64,000 nucleotides of DNA, taken from contig NZ_JASVWF010000002.1 of assembly GCF_030286555.1 (NCBI RefSeq), forward strand, positions 372,001 through 436,000, in the 5' to 3' direction. Every line of letters begins with the position of its first letter. Within the stretch, counting starts at the first letter, position 1. The notes beneath the pieces are model-generated. The model had not been told where the DNA came from, searched no databases, and saw only the letters and a list, made by a program, of their open reading frames with translations. The translations under genes were made by a program, and so were the position numbers. Below are positions 14,285-18,624 of the stretch, piece after piece. Source of the DNA: Actinomycetospora termitidis (GTDB lineage Bacteria; Actinomycetota; Actinomycetes; Mycobacteriales; Pseudonocardiaceae).

Positions 14285-15148
14285 ATGCCGCTGCGCCGGT
14301 TGCTTCTGCTGCCCCACCTCGCGTGGTGGGGAGTCCGCGCTCCGCGCGGTGGCAGGGACCGGTGGGACCTCTACTGGGCCGGGGTCGGGTCCACGGGGGA
14401 CGGCGGAGACGTGCTGTGGGATTCCGGCGATCCGGCGGAGCCGGACCGGTACCTGGAACTCCTCGAGAGGTTCGCCGACCCGGCCCTCCCGGTGATCGAT
14501 CTCGGGTGCGGCAACGGTCGGTTCACCCGCGCGCTGTGTCGAGCGGGATGGCGGGGCATCGGGGTCGACGTGTCGGACGCGGCGATCGCGCTCGCCCGCG
14601 AGGAGGCCGACCGGGTCCCGGAGGAACCGGGGTTCCTGGTCGCCGACCTCGCGGCACCCGACGCGGTCGATCGGATCCGCGCGGATCCGGGCCCGGCGAA
14701 CGTGTTCGTGCGCGGCGTGCTGCACGTGCTCACCGCGGAGGCACGAGGACGGGCCGCGGCGAACATCGGGCGCCTCCTGGGCGACCGCGGCGTCGCGGTG
14801 ATCGCCGAGACCAACCACCGGGGATCCCTGCTGAGCTACGTGGAGAACCTGGGCGCCGGGCCCCGCGGGCTGCCGCACCCGCTGGCCCGGGCGATCGCCT
14901 CGGGTCTGCCCACCCCACGTCCCTTCGGCGGGGACGAGCTGGACCGGACGTTCCCGGCCGACGAGTGGGAGCGGGTGCACGTCGACGACACCGCGGTGAT
15001 CCACGCCGTCCCGATGCACCGCCGCAGCGAGGAACCCGAACGGATCCGGGGCCTCGTCGCCGTCGTCCGGCCTCGCCCCCGGATCCCCGAGCCCCGGCGG
15101 GGTGGGGAGGAGACCGGCCGGGTCGAGGTTGCTCCGAACGGCTCTTGA
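14285..15148 (+). CDS. Class I SAM-dependent methyltransferase
   Basis: This 287-residue protein carries the SAM-binding motif [12 protein letters not shown], an acidic second strand ([11 protein letters not shown]) and motif III/IV residues around VADLAAP and VRGVLHVL. That is a class I Rossmann methyltransferase of the type acting on small molecules. The Arg/Pro-rich C-terminal 40 residues look disordered. The ATG follows GAGGGGGACGACG. The stop overlaps the -35 box of the next gene, so the two are separately controlled. The acceptor is unknown. Confidence 0.75.
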
Positions 15149-15153
15149 TCTTC

Positions 15154-15169
15154 TCGAACACGTGTTCGA
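15154..15169. promoter_or_regulatory. LexA (SOS) box in the promoter of the HNH gene
   Basis: The site reads TCGAAC-ACGT-GTTCGA, a perfect match to the actinobacterial LexA operator TCGAAC-N4-GTTCGA. It sits between a TTGATC -35-like box (15145-15150) and a GACTAT -10-like box (15168-15173). The start codon at 15180 is 6 nt after the -10 box. LexA bound here would block RNA polymerase, so the downstream gene should be induced by DNA damage. Confidence 0.85.
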
Positions 15170-15179
15170 CTATGGGTGC

Positions 15180-16865
15180 ATGACGGCGGGCGTGTGGTAC
15201 CTGGATCCGAACGGGTCCTGGCAACCCCGCGCCGAGCGGACACCGATGCCGCCGCCCGGCGAGCCGGGTGAGCGGCTGGCGCGGGTCCTGCCGCTCCGCC
15301 CACCGGATCCTGAGCCCGACGCCGGGTGGGCGGTGCCCGGGGTCGAGCCCGAGACGTGCGACAGCGGTGAGGAGCGGCTGTCGCGGTCCTCGCGGGCGGC
15401 GCTGGCCGAGATCGCCGACGCGGTCACCGCCCACCGGCTGGCCGGGGCGCGCGTCTATCGGGCGATCCTGGCCCTGGAGGGCTCGGACGCGGTCGCCGAG
15501 TCCGGCTACCGCGACCTGCCGCGGCTGCTTTCCGACCACGTCCGGCTCGACCCCGCCGAATCCAGACGGCTGGCCAGGCATGCCGAGGCTCTGCACCCCA
15601 CGGTCACACCCGCGGGCGCCACGCTGGAACCGGACCTGCCGGCGACCTCGACGGTGGTCGACCACGGCGAGGCCGGCGACGGCCACGTCGAGGTGATCCG
15701 GAAGACCATGACCCGGCTGCGTGGGGTCGAGGACCTGCCCGCCGAGGTGCTGGCGACCACGGAGGAGCAGCTCGCGCAGCTGGCGCGCACCCACTGCCCG
15801 GCCGCACTCACCCGCGCCGCCGTGGTGATCGCCGACCGACTCGACCCCGACGGGGCCGCCCCGGCGGAGGATCCGGCGCCGGAGAACGAACTGACCTACA
15901 CCCGCCGCAAGAACGGTCACCTGCACGCCAAGACCATCCTGCGCGACCCGGTCGCCGCGGAGTTGTTCGACCAGGCCATCCGCGGGGCGACCTTGCCGCC
16001 CCAGTCGGCGGCCGTGGTCGACCCGGACACCGGGCAGCCGCCCACCGGTGCCGACGGGGCGCGTGGGGAAGACCCGCAGATCGAGGCGCGGGAGTCCAAG
16101 CCCTCCCGCCAGGCTGCGGCCCTGATGGACCTGATCGAGGCCGGCCACGCCGCCGGCCTCGACGAACCCGGCGACCCCGACGAGCCCGATGGGCAGAGGG
16201 AGTTCGGCGGCCCGGACAACGACGACGTCCACCCCGGCGAGGACCCCGGAGGAAACGCCGAGTCGGGCGTCGACGACGACCCGGGCGCGGGTCCTGCCAC
16301 CGATGCCGGCCTCGACGGCCCGGTAGCCCCACCTCCACGGCCGGCACCGGCGCGGGCCAGAGACGTCCCGTCGCTGCAGCTGACCGTGACCGTCGACTTC
16401 GACACCCTGCGCGACCAGCTCGCCGACCGCAGCAAGGCCCTCGCGCTGCTCGAGGACACCACGTGGATCCGCCCCGAGACCGTACGCCGCCTGGCATGTG
16501 ACGCGGAGATCATCCCGATGGTGATGGGGTCGAAGGGCGAGGTCCTCGACGTCGGGCGCAAGACCCGCAACCCACCCGCCGGGCTACGCCGCGCCGTGCG
16601 CCGCCGCGACCGGCACTGCGCCTTCCCCGGCTGCCGCCGAAGAGCCCGCCACACCCAGGTCCACCACATCGCGCACTGGGGCCACGGCGGTGAGACCGAG
16701 CTCGACAACCTCGTGTGCCTCTGCGGCTACCACCACACGCTGGTCCACCACTCCGGCTGGGAGATCGTCATGGACCAGCGCATGCCCTGGTTCATCCCAC
16801 CGAAGTGGCTCGACCCCACCCGCACCCCCCGACACAACCGCCCCTGGACCATCGAGGCGGCGTGA
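15180..16865 (+). CDS. DUF222 (13E12 repeat) protein with C-terminal HNH endonuclease domain
   Basis: This 561-residue protein has an N-terminal helical DUF222 region, an acidic, Pro-rich middle (about residues 300-390) and a C-terminal HNH nuclease. The nuclease contains CAFPGC, HHIAHW (first His pair near residue 495), GGETELDNLVCLC and YHHTLVH; its Cys pairs would bind a structural zinc. The family is the mycobacterial 13E12 repeat group, some members of which are known to be LexA-controlled. The ATG at 15180 lies directly after a perfect SOS box with -10-like spacing, so the transcript is probably leaderless and damage-inducible. Whether it acts in repair, recombination or defence is not known. 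Confidence 0.88.
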   Translation: MTAGVWYLDPNGSWQPRAERTPMPPPGEPGERLARVLPLRPPDPEPDAGWAVPGVEPETCDSGEERLSRSSRAALAEIADAVTAHRLAGARVYRAILALEGSDAVAESGYRDLPRLLSDHVRLDPAESRRLARHAEALHPTVTPAGATLEPDLPATSTVVDHGEAGDGHVEVIRKTMTRLRGVEDLPAEVLATTEEQLAQLARTHCPAALTRAAVVIADRLDPDGAAPAEDPAPENELTYTRRKNGHLHAKTILRDPVAAELFDQAIRGATLPPQSAAVVDPDTGQPPTGADGARGEDPQIEARESKPSRQAAALMDLIEAGHAAGLDEPGDPDEPDGQREFGGPDNDDVHPGEDPGGNAESGVDDDPGAGPATDAGLDGPVAPPPRPAPARARDVPSLQLTVTVDFDTLRDQLADRSKALALLEDTTWIRPETVRRLACDAEIIPMVMGSKGEVLDVGRKTRNPPAGLRRAVRRRDRHCAFPGCRRRARHTQVHHIAHWGHGGETELDNLVCLCGYHHTLVHHSGWEIVMDQRMPWFIPPKWLDPTRTPRHNRPWTIEAA

Positions 16866-16890
16866 GCTGGAGTCGACCCGGGTGTCGGTG

Positions 16891-18624
16891 TCAGGGGCAT
16901 GCGCTCTCCAACGCTCGCCGTTCGGTGCGCACCTCGTCGGCGAGGGCGGACAGGACACCGCTCGGGGCGTCGGGCGCGTCGACCAACAGCCGTGTCCGGG
17001 CCTCGATGAGCGGGACGGACCCGTCGTCGGGACCGGTCCGGGTGACGGTGGCCAGCAGGGCGAGATCGTCGAGCCCGAGGCGGACCCGCTCGAGCTGTTC
17101 GGTCTGGTGGTCGGTGAGCCGGTCGTGCTCCCCGACGAGGTCGCGGCGGGCGCGGGCGGCGTCCCGCCAGGCGGAAGCCACCCGCGTCCGGTCCGGGGCG
17201 TCCTCGGCGAGGGCGTCGAGCGCGGTGACCGTCGCGGCGACGGCGGCTTCGAGTCGCCGGCGGAGGTCGGGCCGGCGGCGGGAGGGGACGACGGCGAAGG
17301 CGACGACCACGCTGACCAGGACCGCGACCACCATGAGGATCCCGTACTCGACGAGCACGGCGACCGGGTCGAGGCCGCGCAGTGAGCTGGAGAAGCCGAC
17401 GCTGACGCAGACCATGGCCGCACTGCCGAGGGTCGGGCGGGAGGTGATCGTCGCGAGCCCCAGGACGAGGGCGACGAGGGCGATCGGGAGCAGGGTCGCC
17501 GGGGGGAGGACGAGGATGATCGCGACCGCCACGGCCGCCCCGGCGAGGAGCCCGAGAATCTTGGGGCGGGCGCGGGCCAGGGTGGCGCCCCAGCTGGTCT
17601 GCAGGATCGAGAAGGTCGTCATGAGCAGCGTCGGCAGGAGCGGGTCCCCGGGCCGCAGCGTCAGGGAGACCAGCAGGACGAGCAGCACCCCCAGCGTGGT
17701 GCGGAGTGCGTGCCGCACCTGGGTCGAGCGCCAGGCGTCGGTGCTCGCCAGGGCCGCGCGGAGCCCGTGGTGGGCGCGGTCGTCGTCGGCGAGAGGCGTG
17801 GCGTCGCGCCGGACGACGAGTTCGGCGACCCGGTCGAGGGCGTCGTCGGCGGTGCGCAACGGGTCCTCGAGCTCCGGCACGGGGGTGGCGCGGCCGGGCG
17901 GCTCGTCGGACGGCCGCTTCGCGCGGACGGCGGCGGCGAGGCTCCGTGCCCGCTCGCGGACGGCCTCCACGGCCCGGTCCCCTGCGGCGCGGTCCTCGAC
18001 CGGCAGCCGTCGGACCGTGGCGTCCGCGGTGGCGACGGCCAGGCGGGTCCGGACGGCGGCCGTGATCACGGCTGCGAGCCAGGTCGGCCGGCCGTCCCGG
18101 AGCCAGAGGTCCACCGCGCCGGCCACCGAGGGCTCGGGCTCGTCGAGGAGCCCCGCGACCTTCGCGCGCGCCGGCCCGTGGGGGTCCCGGAGCCCGGTGA
18201 CGCACCGGAACAGCGCCGCGACGACGAGCCCGGCCACAGTGGCGACGACGAGCTGCAGTGCCGGGATCCCGCCGCCGATCGGGAGGCCGTAGCTGATCAG
18301 CGTCAGCAGGCCCAGGCCGAGGCCCAACGTCGTCAGGCCGGGACGACGCAGCGGGAGCAGCCCGGCGATCAGGACGAGCGCGAGGATGAGCGCGAAGGCC
18401 GCGGGACGGGACCACTCGGCGAGGAGTCGGGGGCCGCACGCCGCGACGAGGAGTACCGGGCTGGACGCCGCCAGCGCCCGCAGGTCGGACCACAGCGGCC
18501 CGCCGGCGACGCCGATGAAGGAGAACAGCCCGGCGAACGCGCCCACGATCGCGGCCGGCCCGGCGCCGAAGAGCAGACCCAGCGCGAACGCCGGAACGAC
18601 GAGGACGACGAAGAGCCCGAGCAC
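16891..18624 (-). CDS. FUSC-family (aromatic acid exporter-like) membrane protein
   Basis: This 577-residue protein has the duplicated FUSC layout. An N-terminal block of about six helices spans residues 1-150. A cytoplasmic helical stretch runs about 150-310, and a second six-helix block (VRHALRTTLGVLLVLLVSL through AVLVSVVVAFAVV) ends near 460. A cytoplasmic helical tail follows. The family includes YccS and p-hydroxybenzoic acid exporters such as AaeB, but many members have no known substrate. The GTG start at 18624 lies only 23 bp from the divergent LLM gene, so the two promoters must overlap. It is convergent with the HNH gene. Confidence 0.75.
   Translation of the reverse strand: MLGLFVVLVVPAFALGLLFGAGPAAIVGAFAGLFSFIGVAGGPLWSDLRALAASSPVLLVAACGPRLLAEWSRPAAFALILALVLIAGLLPLRRPGLTTLGLGLGLLTLISYGLPIGGGIPALQLVVATVAGLVVAALFRCVTGLRDPHGPARAKVAGLLDEPEPSVAGAVDLWLRDGRPTWLAAVITAAVRTRLAVATADATVRRLPVEDRAAGDRAVEAVRERARSLAAAVRAKRPSDEPPGRATPVPELEDPLRTADDALDRVAELVVRRDATPLADDDRAHHGLRAALASTDAWRSTQVRHALRTTLGVLLVLLVSLTLRPGDPLLPTLLMTTFSILQTSWGATLARARPKILGLLAGAAVAVAIILVLPPATLLPIALVALVLGLATITSRPTLGSAAMVCVSVGFSSSLRGLDPVAVLVEYGILMVVAVLVSVVVAFAVVPSRRRPDLRRRLEAAVAATVTALDALAEDAPDRTRVASAWRDAARARRDLVGEHDRLTDHQTEQLERVRLGLDDLALLATVTRTGPDDGSVPLIEARTRLLVDAPDAPSGVLSALADEVRTERRALESACP

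Follow-up and report, generated by a model that had tools for sequence, protein, structure and literature searches.

Many actinobacteria are rich in genes of the 13E12/DUF222 family, whose role is still a puzzle. One of them, P0001, lies in a 64,000-nucleotide stretch of Actinomycetospora termitidis DNA (contig NZ_JASVWF010000002.1, positions 372,001 to 436,000; hereafter the window) and encodes a protein with a DUF222 and an HNH nuclease part directly behind a perfect LexA operator. This raises the question of when such a gene is switched on, where its message begins, and what its product does. The reading that we favor, with a probability of roughly 0.6, is that P0001 is a LexA-controlled leaderless gene with PafBC-driven sisters, that it specifies a ParB/Noc-like plus HNH nuclease, and that cuts in its copies are mended from sister copies, leading to their likeness within a genome.

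Operator, promoter boxes and start codon

The elements at the 5′ end of the gene, and the gene itself, are as follows.

15145..15150, + strand: −35-like box TTGATC, with a 17-bp spacer to the −10-like box
15154..15169, + strand: LexA operator (SOS box) TCGAACACGTGTTCGA, a perfect palindrome with zero mismatches to TCGAAC-N4-GTTCGA
15168..15173, + strand: −10-like box GACTAT, overlapping the operator by GA
15180..16865, + strand: DUF222-HNH gene P0001, 561 amino acids, with a predicted leaderless ATG at 15180

The operator, the two boxes and the ATG had been described in an initial annotation of the window and were found again, including the ATG 6 nucleotides (nt) after the end of GACTAT. That annotation also placed the operator between the two boxes, which is correct on the left, where it lies to the right of the −35 box, but not on the right, where its last two bases GA double as the first two of the −10 box. 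GACTAT is a weak −10 box, in which only A at −11 and T at −7 agree with TANNNT.

The upstream region was compared among 29 close copies, drawn from eight genomes within the genus: P0001-type genes with the 5′ end covered, chosen by protein similarity among the matches listed. The set was settled after the upstream motif results were known. Four loci with a missing 5′ end (L126, L138, L139 and L143) and two of a more distant kind (L140 and L141) were excluded, the latter two being without a perfect operator. The operator was perfect in all 29 copies and stood 10 nt before the start codon, ATG or GTG, in 27 of them and 11 nt before it in two, so that the −10 hexamer ended 6 or 7 nt upstream, respectively. 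This hexamer read GANNNT in 27/27 copies having the 10-nt gap, its final T was kept in 29/29, and a Shine-Dalgarno-like string occurred in a single one of the 29 spacers between operator and start. The region 5′ of the start is regarded as non-coding because the two 11-nt copies shift the upstream frame. The fixed gap and the retained final T back the leaderless start that had been proposed for the window gene, and the invariant operator, together with the lexA locus and the damage genes described below, likewise backs its control by LexA; both remain predictions from aligned DNA.

Other candidate elements fared less well. The −35 box varied among the 27 copies with the 10-nt gap (TTGATC in 14, TGGATC in 6), which weakens its case as an essential element. 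A short upstream open reading frame, ATG GGT GCA TGA (15172-15183), whose stop overlaps the start codon, was considered for translational coupling and rejected, as it is not kept across genomes: an ATG at this position occurs in 5/5 own-genome copies and in most copies of genomes G001 and G016, where the stop is missing, and in none of the copies of G003, G009, G013, G014 and G015. A PafBC promoter serving the window gene (L021) was not supported, since the motif TTGTCRGTG-N8-TANNNT with at most one mismatch, 5–8 nt before the start, was not found there; this gene is of the LexA type only.

The genome-wide operator search proposed in the initial annotation was carried out on the 6.56 Mb of the own genome (G000), where 14 perfect TCGAAC-N4-GTTCGA operators were found, six of them 10 nt before DUF222 starts. 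This count exceeds chance, because the reversed pattern used as a control gave 0. A single lexA gene was detected (one PF01726 match, 90.2 bits), and at its locus (L252, contig C11) three operators with one mismatch each, of which two abut, lie 5′ of the DNA-binding domain. Among the eight perfect operators away from DUF222 genes, three precede genes for a dnaE2-like protein (PHP/DNA polymerase III alpha), a radical SAM protein and an AlkB-like 2OG-Fe(II) oxygenase; the frames tested behind the remaining ones gave RibD_C, LppM or no Pfam match. Because the lexA locus carries one-mismatch operators and damage genes lie behind perfect ones, the motif can be taken, as a well-founded inference, to be the LexA site of this genome. 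Two adjacent same-strand genes with WYL domains fit pafB-pafC.

Some of these loci showed features of their own. The operator before the radical SAM gene (L009, C25:52052-52067) is part of a tandem of LexA palindromes, the perfect one being followed by a one-mismatch ACGAACACGTGTTCGA. The one before the AlkB-like gene (L010, C26:279691-279706) lies 9 nt upstream of the ATG, and this gene is probably leaderless too. At L001 (C1:1255519), a gene without a Pfam match is preceded by both a PafBC motif with zero mismatches and a perfect LexA operator; it is located 5 kb from the dnaE2-like gene, and we take it to be possibly imuA-like.

The pattern appears to extend to the sister genes, which the initial annotation had not covered. 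PF02720 gave 20 dispersed matches in the own genome, in some cases two per gene, and all 18 DUF222 genes with the 5′ end covered carry a LexA- or PafBC-type motif. In six of them the perfect operator lies 10 nt upstream of the start; the other twelve have a YTGTCGGNGG...TANNNT promoter ending 6–7 nt before it, which deviates from the consensus by one mismatch in two genes and by two in ten; eight of these twelve additionally contain a one-mismatch LexA-like palindrome. Neither motif was found near a start at the HNH matches L048 and L050, whose 5′ ends possibly lie beyond the stretch. Over 464 kb of the own genome, the relaxed PafBC pattern gave two hits, neither with a start codon 5–9 nt further on. 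These motifs suggest that sister DUF222 genes are served by PafBC-type promoters.

A stricter census, for either motif, allowed at most one mismatch and fixed the distance to an ATG or GTG in frame. By this count, 54 of 95 DUF222 genes carry a LexA or PafBC motif, as against 0 of 773 other own-genome frames; the control was a mechanical set of 774 open frames, each no shorter than 300 codons, from the own genome only, and the sole one with a motif was the window gene. The positives were distributed as 14/17 in the own genome (13 through LexA and 2 through PafBC, one of them both), 16/28 at order level, 13/26 at phylum level and 11/24 in the named-genus set, which represents 24 of 29 loci (L089, L091, L101, L103 and L108 excluded). 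At order and phylum level each genome contributed its best DUF222 match, which biases the sample toward well-conserved members, and the genes are not independent, several coming from one species or genus. The order and phylum figures follow the listed strands; when strands were assigned by the longest open frame they were 18/30 and 11/26. L197 and L198, which have no listed strand, were left out of the recount, and both had an operator in the longest-frame count. One locus (L172) carries both motifs, and the PafBC form was found in Actinomycetospora succinea, Actinopolymorpha pittospori, Terrabacter strains and a member of Intrasporangiaceae. In some genes the start codon is located inside the operator itself (for example TCGAACATGAGTTCGA in L170, TCGAACATATGTTCGA in L217 and L221), and in five own-genome genes (L015-L019) inside a one-mismatch operator, an arrangement that would couple repressor and translation start unusually directly.

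Likeness of copies within genomes and edges of the repeated unit

A protein tree of the 24 complete copies, which does not include the five incomplete ones of the 29, grouped them by genome and not by site: the seven genomes required six changes, which is the minimum, and the five genomes with several copies were supported at 100/99 or 100/100. Median protein identity reached 88% within a genome (43 pairs, 69–97%), compared with 66% for same-site copies from separate genomes (11 pairs) and 58% in the remaining 222 pairs. Synonymous divergence (dS) was 0.57–0.67 for same-site pairs (9 of 11, two giving no value) and 0.105–0.66 for same-genome pairs (15 of 34 pairs listed), of which the top value involves the window copy. 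The ratio of nonsynonymous to synonymous divergence (dN/dS) was below 1 in 34 pairs from all five genomes tested (20 of the 24 complete copies), and the HNH residues are retained in 24/24. We read the grouping by genome as the probable outcome of conversion between copies; independent insertion of copies at the same sites is a less simple explanation. In this concerted evolution the copies, least clearly that of the window, agree with homing endonuclease-like elements.

The boundaries of the homologous DNA and the neighboring genes are as follows.

14285..15148, + strand: methyltransferase-like open reading frame P0002, whose TGA lies within the −35 box and whose last residues are in the left cassette edge
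15128..15150, + strand: left cassette edge GTTGCTCCGAACGGCTCTTGATC, just 5′ of which the flanks of the copies diverge
16832..16850, + strand: right cassette edge ACACAACCGCCCCTGG..., with the stop codon set by the local flank
16891..18624, − strand: FUSC_2-like membrane protein P0003, the downstream neighbor of P0001

On the left, agreement between copies begins at GTTGCTCC, approximately 52 nt before the start, and GTTGCTCCGAACGGCTCTTGATC with up to 3 mismatches occurs at 5 places in the own genome, all before P0001-type copies. On the right, DNA similarity of the window copy to those of G003, G016, G001 and G014 stops at 16847-16867; in most copies agreement ceases near the gene end and the stop codon varies with the flank. 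As judged from these alignments, promoter and gene form one repeated unit with sharp edges, and the DUF222 family appears to behave as a promoter-plus-gene unit homogenized within genomes, which goes beyond the initial claim for a single gene. The left edge may be an upstream promoter element, a regulator site or an element end. The block GTTGCTCCG is kept at 15128-15136 of the window and upstream of L114, L117, L118, L128 and L129, and about 23 nt further upstream of it some genomes have another copy, which is GTTGATCC- or TGATCC-like.

The flanks bear on how the copies came to their sites. The sole close relative of P0002 in the genus is in G014 (77% identity over residues 1–271, or to 277 with a gap), with no cassette-like DNA within the 5 kb fetched around it. 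Relatives of P0003 in G003, G001 and G016 lie about 3.5–5 kb from a DUF222 copy or fragment, at a locus termed site A. The flank upstream of this site was located in the own genome on a different contig, where the stretch examined gave no P0001-like match. By this synteny the window copy is placed at a breakpoint, its two flanks belonging to different loci; although G014 has the P0002 relative without a cassette, insertion and rearrangement are thereby indistinguishable. Eight sites are common to several species by the upstream flank, some by the downstream flank too. At site D, synteny extends for many kilobases on both sides in three genomes; at site C (G009 and G000), only the upstream side is common, over the 14.5 and 15.9 kb compared. 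Recent transposition was considered as the source of the copies, and it is weakened by the many common sites and the synteny of site D.

Assembly boundaries were also observed at these genes. In G001, two DUF222 copies at contig ends (L131 and L132) reach a stop and then a common sequence of TGTCTCAGCACAT type, which would fit their interruption by an insertion sequence. DUF222 copies are also cut off by the ends of contigs C5, C25, C26 and C27 of G000 and of some contigs of G001 and G014, which suggests that near-identical stretches were left unassembled there.

Predicted protein, mechanism and rival explanations

The two parts of the P0001 protein are placed as follows.

15384..15842, + strand: helical core of DUF222, residues 69–221, modeled by AlphaFold2 with a predicted local distance difference test score (pLDDT) of at least 85 per block of ten
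16578..16799, + strand: HNH nuclease domain, residues 467–540, with C480, C485, H495, H496, N510, C515, H518, H519 and H523

DUF222 (PF02720) scored 76 bits against a curated cut-off of 24.4, and HNH (PF01844) scored 21.3 bits, marginally below its cut-off of 21.4. The HNH residues are invariant or near-invariant in an alignment of 16 sequences including P0001, and the solved structures nearest to this domain are EcoKMcrA, IscB-HNH and TagI. For the DUF222 core, the top rows obtained with VIA-align were all ParB/Noc/Spo0J proteins, superposing about 100 residues at 2.1–2.9 Å. Foldseek alone gave no significant match for the whole P0001 or its DUF222 part, the ParB family was absent from the Pfam matches of the 16 sequences at E up to 10, a sequence search of the PDB gave no match, and DUF3322 matched P0001 in Pfam at E 0.044. 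These models hint that P0001 possibly combines a ParB/Noc-like helix-turn-helix domain with an McrA-like HNH domain.

A mechanism can be proposed from these features. With high confidence, LexA would cover the spacer together with the leading GA of the −10 box and block RNA polymerase, and, with the same confidence, RecA filaments would induce self-cleavage of LexA and release a leaderless mRNA beginning at the AUG. Sister DUF222 genes would reach the same outcome through activation by PafBC, a step held with moderate confidence, as is the next, in which the ParB/Noc-like helical domain of P0001 would bind DNA and the McrA-like HNH domain would cut it. Less certain are the last steps: cuts in or near other copies might undergo RecA-dependent repair from a sister copy, making the copies in one genome alike, and the host might survive as the nuclease is made only during recombination repair. 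The most likely function inferred for P0001 is that of a nuclease timed by damage, which would foster gene conversion between the copies of its own gene. In a bolder form of this, offered tentatively, DUF222-HNH genes in general are damage-timed gene-conversion elements: a ParB/Noc-like domain fused to an HNH nuclease, expressed from a traveling leaderless promoter that LexA cleavage or PafBC opens, would cut sister loci, and recombination machinery responding to the same signal would copy the element over them. This form seems to us doubtful.

Some observations weigh against the reading that we favor. The concerted-evolution signal is weakest for the window copy itself, the −10 box is weak (GANNNT), and the further conserved block GTTGCTCC lies well upstream of the start; the latter two would suit a gene that is not leaderless, with transcription starting upstream and the operator inside a leader. 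We assign this a small probability, as the operator-start gap of 10–11 nt and the final T of the −10 box are kept in every close copy, Shine-Dalgarno-like strings are nearly absent from the spacers, and other DUF222 genes have a −10 box 5–8 nt before the start or a start codon within the operator. Another account makes the copies a mobile element or its remnant, copied by something else, with damage control as a by-product and the nuclease taking no part in the spread. The dispersal of the copies, the position of the window copy at a synteny breakpoint and the early ends of two G001 copies in common sequence are in its favor, but the HNH residues are retained and dN/dS is below 1, and the many sites common to species make recent hopping unnecessary; we consider it improbable.

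Further alternatives concern the role of the nuclease. A host repair nuclease working with the SOS machinery on damaged or mismatched DNA, in replacement of the missing mismatch repair, would explain why the operator type is common to dnaE2-like and other damage genes, and such a system was proposed for the 13E12 HNH proteins of Mycobacterium tuberculosis in the portion of PMC4181829 available. However, copy number ranges from 1 to 39 protein matches per genome among the matches listed, fragments included, with none in 6 of 41 genomes, and dispersed repeats with flank-dependent stop codons are unlike a core repair gene, so this role is rather unlikely. Defense against phages or mobile DNA by a damage-triggered, restriction-like enzyme acting on foreign or modified DNA fits the structural nearness of the HNH domain to modification-dependent McrA-type enzymes and its weak likeness to an NCBIfam model of a phosphorothioate-DNA restriction enzyme. 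This likeness (18.7 bits against a cut-off of 180) is confined to the HNH part, however, and PADLOC gave no match, the neighbors of copies not having been scanned for defense genes; the probability of a defense role is accordingly low. Still lower is that of a suicide or clean-up nuclease degrading the chromosome under heavy damage. In its favor, the extracts from PMC9416677 describe the M. smegmatis HNH protein MSMEG_1275 as cleaving DNA at numerous sites and as inhibiting growth on overexpression. Yet just one of the five HNH genes tested in those extracts was lethal, the main text of that paper contains neither DUF222 nor 13E12, and keeping the HNH residues in so many copies would come at a high cost.

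If gene conversion driven by the nuclease is the correct reading, the nuclease would be the cause of the conversion hotspots at REP13E12 loci. The leaderless, damage-switched rule (LexA or PafBC) says when DUF222 genes may act, and homogenization by genome together with the DNA-binding-plus-HNH model says what their proteins may do. An annotated repeat thereby becomes a testable hypothesis, in which a nuclease sets the time of its own gene conversion by the DNA-damage response.

Comparison with known systems

Four named 13E12 genes of M. tuberculosis belong to the LexA regulon and were called mobile-element-like and damage-active in the sections available of PMC5005354; the initial statement that LexA control is established for some mycobacterial 13E12 genes is thus in print. 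REP13E12 loci were described as gene-conversion hotspots of M. tuberculosis in passages of a preprint (PMC13061034), the main text of which contains neither HNH nor LexA, and five HNH genes are listed among RecA-dependent damage-induced genes in an excerpt of PMC8151990. These 13E12/REP13E12 genes resemble P0001 by family name and domains, and are likened here by description, not by sequence; the passages at hand differ from our reading in having no PafBC promoters, leaderless starts or nuclease role in conversion. About one-quarter of M. tuberculosis genes with a primary start are leaderless, usually with a −10 TANNNT and no −35 motif, according to the parts accessible of PMC3898074, in whose main text 13E12 does not occur; the window gene differs in having the G of the operator in place of the T at −12. 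The RecA-NDp/PafBC promoters tTGTCRgtg - 8 nt - TannnT, as given in the available text of PMC5656591, fit the sister DUF222 genes, but not the window gene.

Nucleases tied to RecA, of the HNH or other kinds, are represented by P1 Ref (PMC4713147) and phage Gp16 (PMC12817073), likened by the descriptions in the passages available; unlike them, P0001 would be linked to RecA via expression only. EcoKMcrA, TagI and ScoMcrA are structurally near in the HNH part, and modified-base binding by P0001 is only an analogy to them. The DUF222 helical core superposes on the ParB/Noc domain with a sequence identity of only 7–15%. No paper combining 13E12 and PafBC was among the matches listed, and the searches made of the open-licence literature yielded neither a leaderless rule, PafBC promoters of DUF222 genes or in-operator starts, nor a link between nuclease and conversion. 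Set beside these systems, the leaderless rule, PafBC as an alternative switch, operators enclosing the start codon, and a promoter and gene evolving as one unit are apparently new.
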